Shown piece after piece: positions 3,563 through 29,630 of a stretch of 32,249 nt of DNA. Numbering within the stretch: position 1 is the first letter of the stretch; every line of letters starts with the position of its first letter. The notes under the pieces were generated by a model. The model saw only the letters and a program-made list of their open reading frames with translations. It searched no databases and was not told where the DNA came from. The position numbers were made by a program, and so were the translations under genes. The DNA comes from a virus: the IMG/VR virus record IMGVR_UViG_3300008952_000182, positions 1 through 32,249 of that record; one strand, given 5' to 3'.

Positions 3563-3641
3563 CTTGTTGCCGTTGCAGGATAGAAAAACTATTTAATAAG
3601 TAAAATAACATTTACTTTAAGTTCCTCAAGGAGATAGCAAC

Positions 3642-23999: not shown

Positions 24000-24028
24000 T
24001 TGACAAACCTGTTAAAATATACTATTAT
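24000..24028 (+). promoter_or_regulatory. Sigma70-type promoter after nrdJ
   Basis: TTGACA, 17-base spacer, TATTAT, in the 66-base gap between nrdJ and the next gene. Start expected near 24035; ribosome site AAAGGA at 24048-24053. Confidence 0.85.
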
Positions 24029-24059: not shown

Positions 24060-24332
24060 ATGAGTTCTAACGACGATAAATTACTAACGAAAGAGGAGCA
24101 CCTCGCAAACTATATTAAGACATTTGTTGCTATCGAGGATGCTATGGAGCCATTCAAGGAGCAGCGAAAAGACCTTCGGGAGTCCTATAACGAGAATGGT
24201 TGGCTCTCCAAGGAAGAAATGAGATTGGCTGTAAAGGCCTACAGATTATATAAGTCCGAGACTGACATGGAGATCTTAACAGACTATGTAAACAAGTGTC
24301 AGCGCTCAGTTGGGAGGATCAATGGTCTCTAA
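24060..24332 (+). CDS. Small acidic helical protein, function unknown
   Basis: A 90-residue protein that appears wholly alpha-helical, with a charged N-terminal half (AIEDAMEPFKEQRKDLRESY) and a second helix 'SKEEMRLAVKAYRLYKSE'. The layout of one long charged helix followed by 'NGWLSKEEMRLAVKAYR' distantly recalls GapR/DUF2312-type DNA-binding proteins, but this is a resemblance only. It is the first gene after a strong promoter and overlaps the GroES-like gene by 11 bases. Confidence 0.7.
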   Translation: MSSNDDKLLTKEEHLANYIKTFVAIEDAMEPFKEQRKDLRESYNENGWLSKEEMRLAVKAYRLYKSETDMEILTDYVNKCQRSVGRINGL

Positions 24333-24645
24333 AATAGAAATGTTGAAACCTGTTAACAGGCACCTTTTGATTGTTCCACATGTTCAAAAGAACGAAACAA
24401 ATTCTGGAGTTTTACTACCAGAAGATTACAAACCAGAAGAAAATCAGTATATTGAAGCGTCAGTTATTGATATTGCTTCAGACTGTAGTAAACAGTTTAG
24501 CCATTTGAAATATAACAATATTGACAACAACAAGATTGTTGTAGATAGATCTATGATTCAAGAAGTTACGTTAAAAGAAAAAACCCACTATATGATTCTG
24601 GAGAACTATGTAGTGGGTGTCTATAGGAGGCCCAGTGAGAATTGA
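24322..24645 (+). CDS. GroES-like co-chaperonin (T4 gp31/Cpn10-type)
   Basis: A 107-residue protein with the Cpn10 plan: 'LKPVNRHLLIVPH' (8-20) as the first strands, 'NSGVLLPEDYKPEENQ' (27-42; GroES has SAGGIVLP at this place), strands ASVIDIAS, then a 'NNKIVVDRSMIQEV' loop and a final 'HYMILENYVVGVY' strand. In T4, gp31 replaces host GroES so GroEL can fold the large capsid protein. The segment matching the GroEL-binding mobile loop is residues ~21-30 (VQKNETNSGV), short and polar compared with GroES. The chosen ATG has GGGAGGA just upstream (24312-24317); the frame also opens at TTG 24310. It overlaps both neighbours. Confidence 0.72.
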   Translation: MVSKIEMLKPVNRHLLIVPHVQKNETNSGVLLPEDYKPEENQYIEASVIDIASDCSKQFSHLKYNNIDNNKIVVDRSMIQEVTLKEKTHYMILENYVVGVYRRPSEN

Positions 24646-25339
24646 TCTCTTTGGTGACAAAGTAGGTGCGGTTGAGTACATTTCACATATGGGTTCGGAT
24701 TTGTCGGTTGTTAATGCTGCAAGAGTCTCGTTCGGCTCAGAGAAGGAAGAAGTAGATGAAAAAGATATTAAACTTATTAACTACCTTATGGCCCACAATC
24801 ACTCATCGCCATTTGAACATTGCACTATCACATTTCGTTTTACCGTTCCTTTGTTTATTAGGAGCCAGCATCACAGGCATCGCACTTGGGCTTATAATGA
24901 GATATCTCGCAGGTATACTTCTGTAGACATTCAGTTTTATGAACCTAGTGAGTTCCGGACACAACACAAGTCGAATAGGCAAGCAAGCACAGAAAACCTG
25001 ATAGATCCGATATTGGAATCAAACAGGGACGGCTCACCTACTTTGTCGTCAGCGTCCAGCCAAATTAGGGCTCACCACAAGGAGAGCATGAGATTGTTTG
25101 AAGCACTACTGGAGTCAGGAGTCTGCAGAGAACAAGCGAGAGGTGTTCTACCTCAAAATCTTTACACTCAATATTATGGCACCGTTAATTTGCATAATTT
25201 GCTAAAGTTTATCTCACTTAGGTCTCATGAAGGGGCCCAATGGGAGATACAACAAGTTGCCGAATCGTGTCTGGAGATAGCAGAAGAACTATTCCCCCAC
25301 TCAGTTCAGGCATTTATACAAAAGAAAATGGAGAAGTAA
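24635..25339 (+). CDS. thyX: Flavin-dependent thymidylate synthase
   Basis: This enzyme makes dTMP from dUMP using FAD, NADPH and methylene-tetrahydrofolate. The ThyX signature RHR-x7-S is present as RHRTWAYNEIS (residues 81-91). 'HNHSSPFEHC' (54-63), 'SRRYT' and a later 'REQARGVLPQNLYTQYYGT' region complete the family pattern. At 234 residues the length is normal. The start is taken as GTG 24635, 4 bases after AGGAGG (24625-24630); GTG 24617 is in frame but would place that site inside the gene. It overlaps the GroES-like gene by 11 bases and the next gene by TAATG. With nrdJ it provides a phage-encoded dTTP route. Confidence 0.93.
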   Translation: MRIDLFGDKVGAVEYISHMGSDLSVVNAARVSFGSEKEEVDEKDIKLINYLMAHNHSSPFEHCTITFRFTVPLFIRSQHHRHRTWAYNEISRRYTSVDIQFYEPSEFRTQHKSNRQASTENLIDPILESNRDGSPTLSSASSQIRAHHKESMRLFEALLESGVCREQARGVLPQNLYTQYYGTVNLHNLLKFISLRSHEGAQWEIQQVAESCLEIAEELFPHSVQAFIQKKMEK

Positions 25340-25815
25340 TGGCGTTCTTGTTGTCTCTCTGCTTGTTGTCGAATCAGCATATGGATCTAACAGATTATCA
25401 ACACAGTAATCTATGTAAGTATGAAGATCACATTAGAACAGAAGCAGAAAAAAACGGCATTAAACCAGCACTTTTAGCAGCACTTATATATGTTGAGAGT
25501 GGTTTTTATAGGAACGTAGTCAGTGAAGCAAACGCTTGTGGTCTAACACAGGTTATTCCAAAGTGGACAGGGGGCCCAGAAACCAGAGGTGTTAAGTACA
25601 CTTGCAAACAACTAAAAAACCCCACAACCTCGATAAGGGTCGGCGCGCAAATACTCTCCTACAACATCAAGGTCTATGCCAAGGGCAATGTGGACAAAGG
25701 GCTGTGCTTCTACAACGCAGGCACAAAATGTATTACAAGAAAAGGATTTTACAAAAGGTTAGGTTATGTTAAAAAAGTTAAGCGTATATACAGTTTGCTT
25801 TCTGACGATTGTTAG
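25339..25815 (+). CDS. Secreted lytic transglycosylase (SLT domain)
   Basis: This enzyme cleaves peptidoglycan glycan strands; probably the phage endolysin or a cell-wall remodelling enzyme. Family motifs: catalytic Glu53 in YVESGF, 'GLTQVIP' (68-74) and 'FYNAG' (124-128). The ATG at 25339 (TAATG overlap with thyX) gives 158 residues beginning with a short hydrophobic run MAFLLSLCLL, a weak signal peptide or anchor; there is no preceding Lys/Arg, so export is uncertain. Seven cysteines (8, 26, 67, 89, 123, 131, 158) suggest disulfides and function outside the cytoplasm. No holin is evident next to it. It overlaps the following lipoprotein gene by 50 bases, so the two are probably made together. 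Confidence 0.85.
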   Translation: MAFLLSLCLLSNQHMDLTDYQHSNLCKYEDHIRTEAEKNGIKPALLAALIYVESGFYRNVVSEANACGLTQVIPKWTGGPETRGVKYTCKQLKNPTTSIRVGAQILSYNIKVYAKGNVDKGLCFYNAGTKCITRKGFYKRLGYVKKVKRIYSLLSDDC

Positions 25816-27835
25816 TTGCAACGACGAAACTACAACTAGGTATGGTAGCGTAGACAGTTCTCAGCGAACTGTGAGTGTTGATCTTGTTTCACCAGACATT
25901 CAAGTCGTAGAGATACCTGATATTACAGTTGATACGTGGGTAAATCCATGCGAAAATATCCCTAATACACATGTTAGGTTTTGTGATTGTAACCCAAGTT
26001 GTTGTCAACAACAGACCTGGTACTGTCCACCAACTGGGACAGAAATACAAGCAAAGTATGCAGTGTTGGATATTTGCGACGAGACCTTGACCCCCTGCGA
26101 CAGAAATAGGGATCCCACTTGTCCGCCTGCAGAAATAATTGAAGAGACAGATTGTCAGCATGCTTTTGACTGTCCTCCTGGGATAAATGAGGACTTCACA
26201 ATGTATTATGATTGTGAAGTGGATGGGAATCAGGGCCGTCAAGAAGTAAAGTGCGATAAGGGAAGATTGTATTACGGTGAGTGCATCACTTGTTTTGAAG
26301 AAGAGGAGATCTGCGATTTCCAAGACAATGACTGTGATGGAGACATAGATGAAGGGCAAAGAAATGCATGCGATGGATGCGGGACAGTACCAGAGGATAT
26401 TTGTGACGGCCTCGACAATGACTGTGATGGAACTAGTGACGAACAACTCATTAGAGAGTGTACTACGATATGCAATTCTGGATTGGAGATCTGCGCAGCA
26501 GGTAATTGGGTAGGGTGTACGGCACAGAGACCAGAGGACGAGCAGTGCGACGGCGAAGACAACGACTGCGACGACCTAGTGGATGAAGGACTAAATTGTC
26601 AGTGCCCCCCATCGATGGTCGGCGCTTTGATACCCTGTATGGAGCCACCTCTTCTTTGTGGTTTAGGGTTTAAGACATGTGAGTGTGTAGACGAAGAGTG
26701 TGCAGTAACGCAAATGACTGAGTGTTTTGCTGCATGCCACTGGGTACCAGAACTTGCACAAACGGGTCAATGTGATCAGCTGATGGGGCTTGCTACAGAC
26801 CCAGAGATATGTAATAACTTTGACGAAGATTGTGACTTGCTCATCGACGAACGTCTGACTAGAGAGTGTTACACAGGACCAGAGGGTACATTAAATGTCG
26901 GCGTGTGCATACCAGGAACTCAGGTTTGTAACAATGGTCAGTGGTACGGTAGACGTGAAACGGGCAACTATACGGTCGGTATTTGCTCAGGTGAAATTCT
27001 ACCATCTGAAGAGATCTGCGACGGCGCCGACAACGACTGTGATGGCATTGTAGACTTTGGAGAAGAGATTCCAGAGACGGACATCTTGTTCTTGATAGAC
27101 TGGTCAGGATCTATGGAGAATTATATTAACGCAGTCAGGATGGCCATGAACCGATTTGCCCAAACCTTTGAAGCAGAGGATAAATTAAAGTGGGGACTCA
27201 TCGTCGGACCAAGACTTTTGCCAAACGAACTAGACAATTACGGGAGAATGAAGGAGGGTTTGATACTACAATCTGACATCGCTAGTTTTGAAGATTTCCT
27301 AACAGCGTTTGCAAATGTTGGACAGTTTGATAATCAAACTGGAAACGAGATGTTTAAAGATGCATTACTCTTGGCAGTTAGGAGTATATCAGGGAACGTT
27401 GATTACGATTTTAATACTGCGATTTGGTCTAACAGAACAGGGTCAGTCCCAGCGCTTCAGGATTTCAAAATTAATTGGCGCCCAAATGCAGACCGCATCA
27501 TTGTACTTTTCACGGACGAGCATGATCAAACATATCTGGTACCGACGGTCTCTGACAGGGTTTTATTGCAAGCGCTTGTAACAACACCCAGCTTGAAGAC
27601 TTACATATTTGCAGATGGATTTTTTCCTTGGGAAGATTATGCAATAGAGACAGGTGGAAGGATGTTTGATCTTTCTTCAAACCAAGAGCAAATGTACAGT
27701 GATTTGATGTCTATATTGGATGAAATATGCTTAGGCCCTCAACCTGAACAGGGAACAATGAATAGAACACCAGCCGGCTTCTTCCCAGCGTCTTTGCGTA
27801 CCAGATATGACTATAGATTAGGCATATGTTATTGA
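25766..27835 (+). CDS. Lipoprotein with MopE-type repeats and von Willebrand factor A domain
   Basis: A 689-residue exported protein. The signal is MLKKLSVYTVCFLTIVSC, with lipobox IVSC and lipidated Cys18, so it should be membrane anchored. Residues 60-430 are very Cys-rich and contain five repeats of the pattern E-x-C-D-x-x-D-N-D-C-D-G-x-x-D-E (starting at about 181, 211, 259, 347 and 416; the fourth is degenerate). Such MopE-like repeats are known from Myxococcota surface and secreted proteins and are thought to bind metal, mainly calcium. A vWA domain follows (about 437-656) with a complete-looking MIDAS: Asp445, Ser447, Ser449 in LIDWSGSM, Thr525 and Asp584 in LFTDE. The start is ATG 25766, overlapping the lytic transglycosylase. 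Roles could be surface adhesion, superinfection exclusion or lysis; none is shown. Confidence 0.88.
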   Translation: MLKKLSVYTVCFLTIVSCNDETTTRYGSVDSSQRTVSVDLVSPDIQVVEIPDITVDTWVNPCENIPNTHVRFCDCNPSCCQQQTWYCPPTGTEIQAKYAVLDICDETLTPCDRNRDPTCPPAEIIEETDCQHAFDCPPGINEDFTMYYDCEVDGNQGRQEVKCDKGRLYYGECITCFEEEEICDFQDNDCDGDIDEGQRNACDGCGTVPEDICDGLDNDCDGTSDEQLIRECTTICNSGLEICAAGNWVGCTAQRPEDEQCDGEDNDCDDLVDEGLNCQCPPSMVGALIPCMEPPLLCGLGFKTCECVDEECAVTQMTECFAACHWVPELAQTGQCDQLMGLATDPEICNNFDEDCDLLIDERLTRECYTGPEGTLNVGVCIPGTQVCNNGQWYGRRETGNYTVGICSGEILPSEEICDGADNDCDGIVDFGEEIPETDILFLIDWSGSMENYINAVRMAMNRFAQTFEAEDKLKWGLIVGPRLLPNELDNYGRMKEGLILQSDIASFEDFLTAFANVGQFDNQTGNEMFKDALLLAVRSISGNVDYDFNTAIWSNRTGSVPALQDFKINWRPNADRIIVLFTDEHDQTYLVPTVSDRVLLQALVTTPSLKTYIFADGFFPWEDYAIETGGRMFDLSSNQEQMYSDLMSILDEICLGPQPEQGTMNRTPAGFFPASLRTRYDYRLGICY
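26306..27058 (+). repeat. Five MopE-type Asp/Cys coding repeats
   Basis: Dispersed protein-level repeats (about 16 residues each) with core DNDCDG. DNA copies share short runs such as GACAATGACTGTGATGG (near 26326 and 26417), while others use different codons, so the array is not a recent tandem expansion. Confidence 0.8.
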
Positions 27836-28608
27836 CTGGGGTTGTGATAGGCTCCACCGTGGAAGCCGCATATTACGCCCTAGTAAACGAATATCACTTC
27901 ACAACTACTCGGAAGACACCCCCAATGTTTTACGAGCGCTTAGACGTTTCTTTGTTTGGAAAAACAAGTACAGCTGAGGCTTGGACGAAACTAAACATAA
28001 TGTTGGGTTTGTTGTCGAAGAGATTACCAACCAAACCAAACACGAGTATTAGAATTTCAGATCAACAAATCAGAATTACATCAGATAACGTCACTTTTAA
28101 ATATAATTTTGATAAGTTGTTTGTTTTCGACCCATCAGGAATTCAATTAGATAACGAGATAAAACAGGTAAAAGAAAAAACGTTTATTGTCTTGGATGAT
28201 TTTGAGTTGTCAGTCCTCGGGCCTAAAAGATATTCTTTGCCACCTATAACAGGCTCTCAAGGGGTGTGTAGAGAATTGCATTTTTATTCATCTGACAGGG
28301 TCGACGGAGCGGACTATATCACAGATTGTGTTGTCGAGTCAGAGCTAACGATGGATCAGTTAAAGTCATTTGATTATTCAGATTCAATGATCAGGTTCTT
28401 AGTTAAAAGGCACTTGACATCAATAAATGTAAATGGTAGACTTATGAAGCACTACAAAAATGGTAATCCAAAATATCGTAAACCCAACGTAGTACATGTT
28501 AAAAGATTATTGCAAGAAAAGGATAATAACATATACAAAGATACAAAACACGTAAAGTTTATGAATCCGTCACTGGGGGAAATAATTGAACAAAGCACCA
28601 AAAGGTAG
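27826..28608 (+). CDS. Unknown conserved-looking phage protein
   Basis: I do not recognise the family. It is a 260-residue soluble-looking protein. Residues 33-67 contain a clear amphipathic segment ('MFYERLDVSLFGKTSTAEAW', then TKLNIMLGLLSKRL). The middle is beta-like (IRISDQQIRITSDNVTFKYN), and the C-terminus is basic ('GRLMKHYKNGNPKYRKPN', then VVHVKRLL). The start is uncertain: ATG 27826 overlaps the lipoprotein gene by 10 bases, in keeping with the operon; ATG 27925 (MFYERLDV) has GGAAG upstream and begins at the stronger-looking part. The stop overlaps the next gene. Confidence 0.6.
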   Translation: MLLTGVVIGSTVEAAYYALVNEYHFTTTRKTPPMFYERLDVSLFGKTSTAEAWTKLNIMLGLLSKRLPTKPNTSIRISDQQIRITSDNVTFKYNFDKLFVFDPSGIQLDNEIKQVKEKTFIVLDDFELSVLGPKRYSLPPITGSQGVCRELHFYSSDRVDGADYITDCVVESELTMDQLKSFDYSDSMIRFLVKRHLTSINVNGRLMKHYKNGNPKYRKPNVVHVKRLLQEKDNNIYKDTKHVKFMNPSLGEIIEQSTKR

Positions 28609-29446
28609 AAACCTAGCAGGTATCATACCGTTGACCGGGTGGCACAAATCGTTCGATTTCCCATGGCCAGATTATTTGCAGCCTTTGAGAGAGGGATTTT
28701 TGGCAGTTGAAAGGTCTGTTTATGAGTGTGCATATGCTGGCTGCGATAGTATTTGGATTGTATGCGGAGACGATGTTGCACCTCTTGTTAAGAGCCGTCT
28801 GGGAGACTATGTAATGTCTCCTCGATATTTTGAGGAAAAAAACTTTGTCAAGAGCAGAGAGTATCATGAAAAGTGGATTCCGATATTTTACACTCCCATG
28901 ACACAAAAGGATATCGACAGAAGAGATAGTCTTGGCTGGTCCGCATTACATGGAGCGCTCATGGCATTTCAAATATCGGACAAGATGAGTAGGTGGGTGT
29001 TGCCTACCAAATATTATGTATCCTTTCCGTATGGAATATATAATCCGTCTATAGTGAGAGATTACAGGGATATGATTAGAGGTTCAGAATCTTTTTTCTT
29101 ATCGAGACAGGATAAGACAGTCAGAGATAACCTCTATTTAGGATTCACTTTCTTTCCAGATGACTGGCCCAAATTCAAGCATCATATAAAAGACCAGTGC
29201 TCTGGAGGCACCCGGGCGATACCGGCTGCAGAAAGATGGTCAAGTAAGAACTTTACACTTGACAAAATATTCGATATTGATGTAATATCAATAGATAACA
29301 AGGTTGATGTATTTGAGTACTATAGTTTAGATACATGGGATGAATTACAAACATACTACGCCTCAGATATGAAGATACCTAGACCAACAAGAAAATTTAT
29401 GAAACCATATTATCACAGGAGAATGATAGAAGATGAAGAATATTGA
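28586..29446 (+). CDS. Putative nucleotidyltransferase-like (GT-A fold) protein
   Basis: The first ~80 residues resemble sugar-nucleotidyltransferase proteins in outline: strand AGIIPLTG (11-18), P-x-x-L-x-PL near residue 30, helix 'LAVERSVYECAYAGCDSI' and strand WIVCGDDV (57-64). A later 'YYVSFPYGIYNPSIVRDY' segment fits the family's second half. However, the GGxGTR loop and catalytic Lys of true pyrophosphorylases are not seen, so substrate and activity are open. A TTG start at 28586 is chosen because GGGGGA lies just before it and it overlaps the previous gene by 23 bases. It could modify a phage or host glycan, or act on nucleotides; this is not decided by context. Confidence 0.5.
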   Translation: MNKAPKGRNLAGIIPLTGWHKSFDFPWPDYLQPLREGFLAVERSVYECAYAGCDSIWIVCGDDVAPLVKSRLGDYVMSPRYFEEKNFVKSREYHEKWIPIFYTPMTQKDIDRRDSLGWSALHGALMAFQISDKMSRWVLPTKYYVSFPYGIYNPSIVRDYRDMIRGSESFFLSRQDKTVRDNLYLGFTFFPDDWPKFKHHIKDQCSGGTRAIPAAERWSSKNFTLDKIFDIDVISIDNKVDVFEYYSLDTWDELQTYYASDMKIPRPTRKFMKPYYHRRMIEDEEY

Positions 29447-29630
29447 AGAAACTTATGACATTATGCCATCTATTGTTAAGAAACACGCCGGCATGCCAGA
29501 CAATTATAAAGACTTGACAACTGACCAGGAAAGGTTTATAATAGAGATGTTCCAAATTGATAGAGAAGCAATAAAAACAACGTTATTAGAAACAGTAGAA
29601 GAAATGAAAGAATTAGTGAATGACATCTAA
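29433..29630 (+). CDS. Small acidic protein, unknown
   Basis: A 65-residue, mostly helical acidic protein (...ERFIIEMFQIDREAIK... and a VEEMKELVNDI end). It overlaps the preceding gene by 14 bases and DnaE by 11 bases, and AGGAG lies upstream at 29417. A perfect sigma70 promoter lies inside it. No family recognised. Confidence 0.6.
   Translation: MKNIEETYDIMPSIVKKHAGMPDNYKDLTTDQERFIIEMFQIDREAIKTTLLETVEEMKELVNDI
29514..29542 (+). promoter_or_regulatory. Perfect consensus sigma70 promoter before DnaE gene
   Basis: TTGACA, 17-base spacer, TATAAT: both hexamers and the spacing are optimal. It sits inside the 65-residue gene. The expected start near 29549 leaves a leader of about 70 bases to the DnaE ATG. 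Confidence 0.8.

Follow-up and report, generated by a model that had tools for sequence, protein, structure and literature searches.

The locus described here raises the question of what a 689-residue lipoprotein, in which MopE-type repeats are joined to a vWA domain, does for a phage. Its gene (hereafter VWA) lies in a 32,249-nucleotide stretch of viral DNA (IMG/VR record IMGVR_UViG_3300008952_000182; the window), and the features discussed below are collected in Table 1. The open reading frame and the lipobox proposed in a first-pass annotation are both present. The N-terminus, MLKKLSVYTVCFLTIVSC, is a lipoprotein signal with the lipobox IVSC, whose Cys18 keeps its position in 43 of 43 aligned relatives; the residue directly after this Cys is Ser, Ala, Asn or Thr in most relatives and Asp in one of the 43. 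By this signal the product qualifies as a bacterial-type lipoprotein, with lipidation predicted. The signal is followed by a variable acidic linker, an N-terminal domain (residues 61-180), the MopE region (181-432) and the vWA domain (433-660). Cysteines number 49 in the window protein, a cysteine-rich make-up kept in all 43 relatives, which implies an oxidising, extracytoplasmic location. For a virion-associated protein, in whose favour stands only the occurrence of the gene in a phage, such features would be out of place: the signal and the dozens of cysteines direct the product out of the cytoplasm, the site of head and tail assembly, and the gene is not among the structural genes. We therefore consider a virion role most improbable. 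The N-terminal Cys-rich domain had no match in Pfam or PDB, and its single-sequence fold was poor (pLDDT 48) and was not used. A dN/dS of 0.05 was obtained from the one computable pair, synonymous sites being mostly saturated.

Table 1. Coordinates of the VWA lipoprotein gene, its domains and sites, and the neighbouring genes in the window
Feature	Position	Strand	Remarks
Sigma-70-like promoter TTGACA-17-TATTAT	24000..24028	+	gap between RNR and g24060
g24060	24060..24332	+	first operon gene; no assigned function
GroES-like co-chaperonin (cpn10)	24322..24645	+	listed ORF start 24310; ATG 24322 preceded by GGAGG
thyX	24617..25339	+	between-phage distances track VWA gene
SLT transglycosylase	25339..25815	+	secreted-looking; optional; 50-base overlap with VWA start
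VWA lipoprotein gene	25766..27835	+	689 aa; viral relatives, full-length or nearly so, number at least 77
Lipoprotein signal peptide and lipobox IVS-C18	25766..25819	+	Cys invariant, 43/43
N-terminal Cys-rich beta domain (residues 61-180)	25946..26305	+	phage-only so far; no Pfam/PDB match
MopE repeat 1 (CDFQDNDCDGDIDE)	26312..26353	+	
MopE repeat 2 (CDGLDNDCDGTSDE)	26402..26443	+	
MopE repeat 3 (CDGEDNDCDDLVDE)	26546..26587	+	
MopE repeat 4 (CNNFDEDCDLLIDE)	26810..26851	+	
MopE repeat 5 (CDGADNDCDGIVDFG)	27017..27061	+	
vWA domain (residues 433-660), integrin-beta-like	27062..27745	+	AlphaFold2 model; fold and profile matches
MIDAS DxSGS (D445, S447, S449)	27098..27112	+	43/43; aligned to integrin beta-8
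E528, place of integrin beta Glu220	27347..27349	+	E-x3-D-A pattern; predicted equivalence
D584, fifth MIDAS residue	27515..27517	+	aligned to integrin beta-8; invariant
d1	27826..28608	+	conserved; no assigned function; start overlaps VWA stop
d2	28586..29446	+	conserved; no assigned function

The five Asp/Cys repeats noticed in the first reading were confirmed by a Pfam profile search, in which PF11617 matched the window protein at E=8e-12 (45.6 bits against a curated cut-off of 27) and all 43 aligned relatives at E<=0.01, with five to eight repeats per relative. The PF11617 repeat, described as a 'putative metal-binding motif', takes its name from MopE of Methylococcus capsulatus. An oxidised Trp takes part in the copper site of MopE (PMC8424229); no sign of this feature was seen in the phage protein.

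The proposal of a MIDAS-containing vWA domain stood with respect to fold and site and has to be adjusted with respect to profile score and MIDAS type. The PF00092 profile gave 20.5 bits in the window protein, just under the curated cut-off of 23.8; it was matched by 30 of the 43 relatives at E<=0.01, and a shorter phage relative exceeded the cut-off with 24.7 bits. When solved structures were searched by single sequence with two vWA domains, nothing useful was matched. An AlphaFold2 model of the domain (pLDDT mostly 80-95) reached Z scores of 16-18 against solved vWA folds, and its best Foldseek matches were integrin beta chains, which were also the best match by profile (E 0.008, weak). The shared fold with the integrin beta I-like domain (beta-8 and beta-3) corresponds to a Z of about 16-17, while identity in the structural alignments is just 14-18%, and the vWA domains of TFIIH subunits score as high as integrin beta or higher by fold. 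The likeness is confined to fold and site and does not imply a common origin of the whole protein.

A classic vWA MIDAS consists of DxSxS, Thr and Asp, and the MIDAS of integrin beta-3 of Asp119, Ser121, Ser123, Glu220 and Asp251. The aligned relatives have no conserved Thr, so that the classic five-residue form is lacking, and an invariant Glu is found instead, as in the integrin beta I-like domain, which carries Glu where most vWA domains have Thr. From the E-x3-D-A pattern and the integrin beta-3 site, we take E528 to be the counterpart of integrin beta Glu220. D445, S447, S449, E528 and D584 are invariant in 43 of 43 relatives, while linker and tail vary; a Glu of the E528 type is also shared by two relatives from bacteria and by phage versions with a length of only 418-424 aa. 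The MIDAS of the phage domain therefore appears to be of the integrin-beta form (DxSxS, Glu and Asp), both the Glu equivalence and metal binding being predictions. This residue conservation would be left unexplained if, like MopE in Methylococcus, the protein served the infected cell by handling copper or calcium. The MopE-type loops and the many Cys and Asp residues are in keeping with such a role, but the loops resemble generic acidic metal-binding loops, and we find it very unlikely. The invariant integrin-beta-type MIDAS, together with the predicted lipid anchor, would also suit an adhesin by which infected cells attach to one another, to particles or to progeny virions, altering how these spread. 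Exposure on the outer face is unsupported, however, and the gain for a lytic phage is speculative, which makes an adhesin distinctly unlikely.

A scan of IMG/VR recovered at least 77 other loci or contigs with VWA relatives (40-100% identical, most of them full-length); further loci were added by two scans with d2 and RNR as queries. The contigs reach about 190 kb, with one of 281 kb, and come from large uncultured phages, most of them marine. Among the 20 larger contigs there is one VWA copy per record, barring one tandem paralogue. An identical copy of the gene lies on another contig (L002), and gene order is conserved in dozens of contigs; these observations answer the worry that the stretch could be a host-derived assembly chimera, which is rejected. 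No VWA match was obtained among 50,697 annotated phage records or 72,556 plasmid records, PHROGs and NCBIfam hold no family for the protein, the anti-phage defence models of PADLOC did not match it, and the literature searched contained no paper on this architecture in phages. The gene, first described as very unusual, is so with regard to annotated phages, but it is common in this uncultured phage lineage, of which it is a conserved family. The nearest annotated phage by RNR (66% identity), Microcystis phage Mel-JY01, has a similar run of recombinase-polymerase/exonuclease, helicase and RNR genes, without a VWA match. Variants of the locus were also seen: tandem pairs of VWA-family lipoproteins (L044, 9983-14609; L179, 1267-4876), and short VWA lipoproteins of 422-424 aa, encoded on the opposite strand and adjoining two small secreted-looking proteins (L223, 10394-12408; L227, 3688-5684).

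In one scan of named bacterial genomes, only two distant relatives were found, both in unclassified small-genome MAGs. These proteins (L080, 358 aa; L081, 591 aa) share the lipobox and the MopE repeats, followed by a vWA domain with DxSxS, Glu and Asp; identity to the phage protein is about 30%, over part of the vWA region only, and the phage N-terminal Cys-rich domain has no counterpart within the matched stretches. Given this common lipobox-MopE-vWA architecture, we class the phage protein as bacterial in kind, with an N-terminal domain added. Other genomes from the phylum of one bacterial relative contain MopE-rich proteins, and by a simple pattern check the pair of DxSxS and Glu was absent from these loci.

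In the window, VWA belongs to an operon (24060-29630) whose genes overlap throughout. The SLT gene preceding it most likely starts at 25339, not 25240, judging from the starts in relatives and the TAATG overlap with thyX. In most loci the order SSB-uvsX-exonuclease-dnaB-RNR-g24060-cpn10-thyX-[SLT]-VWA-d1-d2 is kept. Co-translation with the transglycosylase had been taken as a key clue to function, a view that the wider sample does not bear out: SLT adjoins or lies near VWA in only 25 of 78 loci, and PF01464 was matched anywhere in just eight of the 20 larger contigs and in none of the other 12. A dependence of VWA on SLT was rejected on these counts. They also bear on the idea of a lysis accessory, a lipoprotein that would assist in breaching the outer membrane once SLT or another endolysin has cut the murein. 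Beyond the overlap of the two genes in the window, this idea draws on the 25 loci with SLT beside or near VWA, on SLT-VWA adjacency in three divergent-context loci (L024, L037 and L038) and on sister phages, whose same slot is occupied by SLT, by a protein resembling it or by a GH25 lysozyme; against it are the 12 larger contigs that lack SLT, an early-like promoter type and the size of the protein, which is much bigger than known outer-membrane spanins. On balance, lysis assistance is possible, though on the unlikely side.

Several observations concern other genes of these loci. For d2, which Pfam does not match, more than 550 relatives were seen among the candidate stretches of viral contigs. 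A divergent phage carries a GroEL-like fragment (L019, 2-787), and the window phage has the GroES-like protein listed in Table 1. At L049 (388-4091), the N-terminal motif MxLLREYIRxLLxE is common to several consecutive genes.

The timing of expression was assessed from promoter motifs. The sigma-70-like promoter TTGACA-17-TATTAT sits in the sole gap upstream of the operon, and a sigma-70-like score of at least 10 out of 12 was reached in 24 of 37 loci, compared with 7% of shuffles. Upstream of the tail sheath gene, such a score was found in only one of 17 phages, and ACTATTTA was present in all 17, in many of them with a terminator-like hairpin ahead of the motif; in the window, ACTATTTAATA precedes the sheath gene at 3588-3598. 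In this lineage, ACTATTTA before the sheath probably serves as a late promoter. The longer motif ACTATTTAnTA, the core of which stands before all 17 sheath genes, has 16 plus-strand occurrences in 1.41 Mb of VWA loci, and none of these falls within the RNR-to-VWA spans (59 loci, 225,683 bases). The T4-type late promoter TATAAATA was also considered and rejected, as its one match in the window equals chance expectation. With a conserved sigma-70-like promoter and no sheath-type motif in the operon, VWA of the main clade would fall into a replication-type class that is probably early or middle, and not late as first proposed. Two loci of divergent context, L015 and L019, may be exceptions: they carry ACTATTTAnTA some kilobases upstream and elsewhere near the VWA gene, and late expression is possible there.

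The site before d1 offers a further view of the gene. VWA lies directly upstream of d1 in 69 of 99 scored loci, a sample that was not dereplicated and was enriched by the queries used; the rest have SLT, cpn10, thyX or another gene there. In sister phages the slot is filled variously by a secreted SLT, a GH25 lysozyme that carries a peptidoglycan-binding domain, a matrixin-like metalloprotease whose N-terminus is lipoprotein-like, a coiled-coil-looking membrane protein or small secreted proteins, and some sister phages have non-envelope genes such as a NUDIX-like protein. For the most part, then, the slot is one for envelope genes. Also observed before d1 was a family of secreted proteins, weakly SLT-like and about 190-236 aa long (L216, 10495-11079; L217, L221, L232, L240 and L257). 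Between-phage distances of VWA correlate with those of thyX (rho 0.67) and hardly with those of d1, d2 and dnaB (0.26-0.31), whereas distances within this d1/d2/dnaB backbone agree with one another (0.81-0.94). thyX-VWA therefore looks like a module exchanged between phages, as expected of an interaction gene. As a separate observation, L016 and L021 (9986 onward) are near-identical as far as the VWA gene and into it, but diverge beyond that point, as would be expected from recombination or a chimeric contig.

Taken together, the early timing, the location in the envelope and the exchange among phages are better explained by exclusion or remodelling than by lysis. We tentatively favour an envelope lipoprotein of infection time with a guarding or remodelling role at the cell surface. 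The lipoprotein would be made in early or middle infection from an operon shared with nucleotide-metabolism genes, exported, and held by its lipid anchor in the infected cell's envelope, in the outer membrane more likely than in the inner. Disulfides and the bound metal of the MopE-type loops would hold it rigid, and the vWA domain thus presented would use the MIDAS metal to grip an acidic group on a partner. The partner would be a component of the host envelope or surface, and the cell surface would be guarded or remodelled as a result, most simply in the form of superinfection exclusion. Of the surface or envelope function late in infection suggested by the first-pass annotation, the location is thereby retained, in view of the lipobox, about 50 cysteines, a slot shared with secreted hydrolases and an architecture for metal-dependent binding; the lateness is not. 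Against exclusion, some of the slot alternatives are murein hydrolases, which point equally to lysis.

Superinfection-exclusion lipoproteins acting at the outer membrane are known from phages T5 (Llp, which is expressed early) and Rtp (Rtp45) (PMC9586334, PMC12685063). Like these, the VWA protein is a phage-encoded lipoprotein at the host envelope, as predicted here. Llp and Rtp45, which have FhuA or LptD as their targets, are small proteins (about 6 kDa for Rtp45), whereas the VWA protein has 689 residues, MopE repeats and a vWA domain, and shows no sequence kinship with known exclusion lipoproteins. A more specific version, in which the phages early on equip the infected cell's surface with an integrin-beta-like metal-dependent receptor that binds a particular protein partner (a rival phage tail, a neighbouring cell or a host receptor), seems unlikely to us; if true, it would represent a type of phage-made cell-surface receptor without earlier description.

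The envelope-altering phage lipoproteins known so far are small and come from a few model phages. The VWA protein is large and multi-domain, belongs to a widespread uncultured lineage, and predicts an invariant metal-dependent binding site outside the cytoplasm. In these phages, promoter motifs would also set the tail-sheath gene apart from the genes for replication and the envelope.
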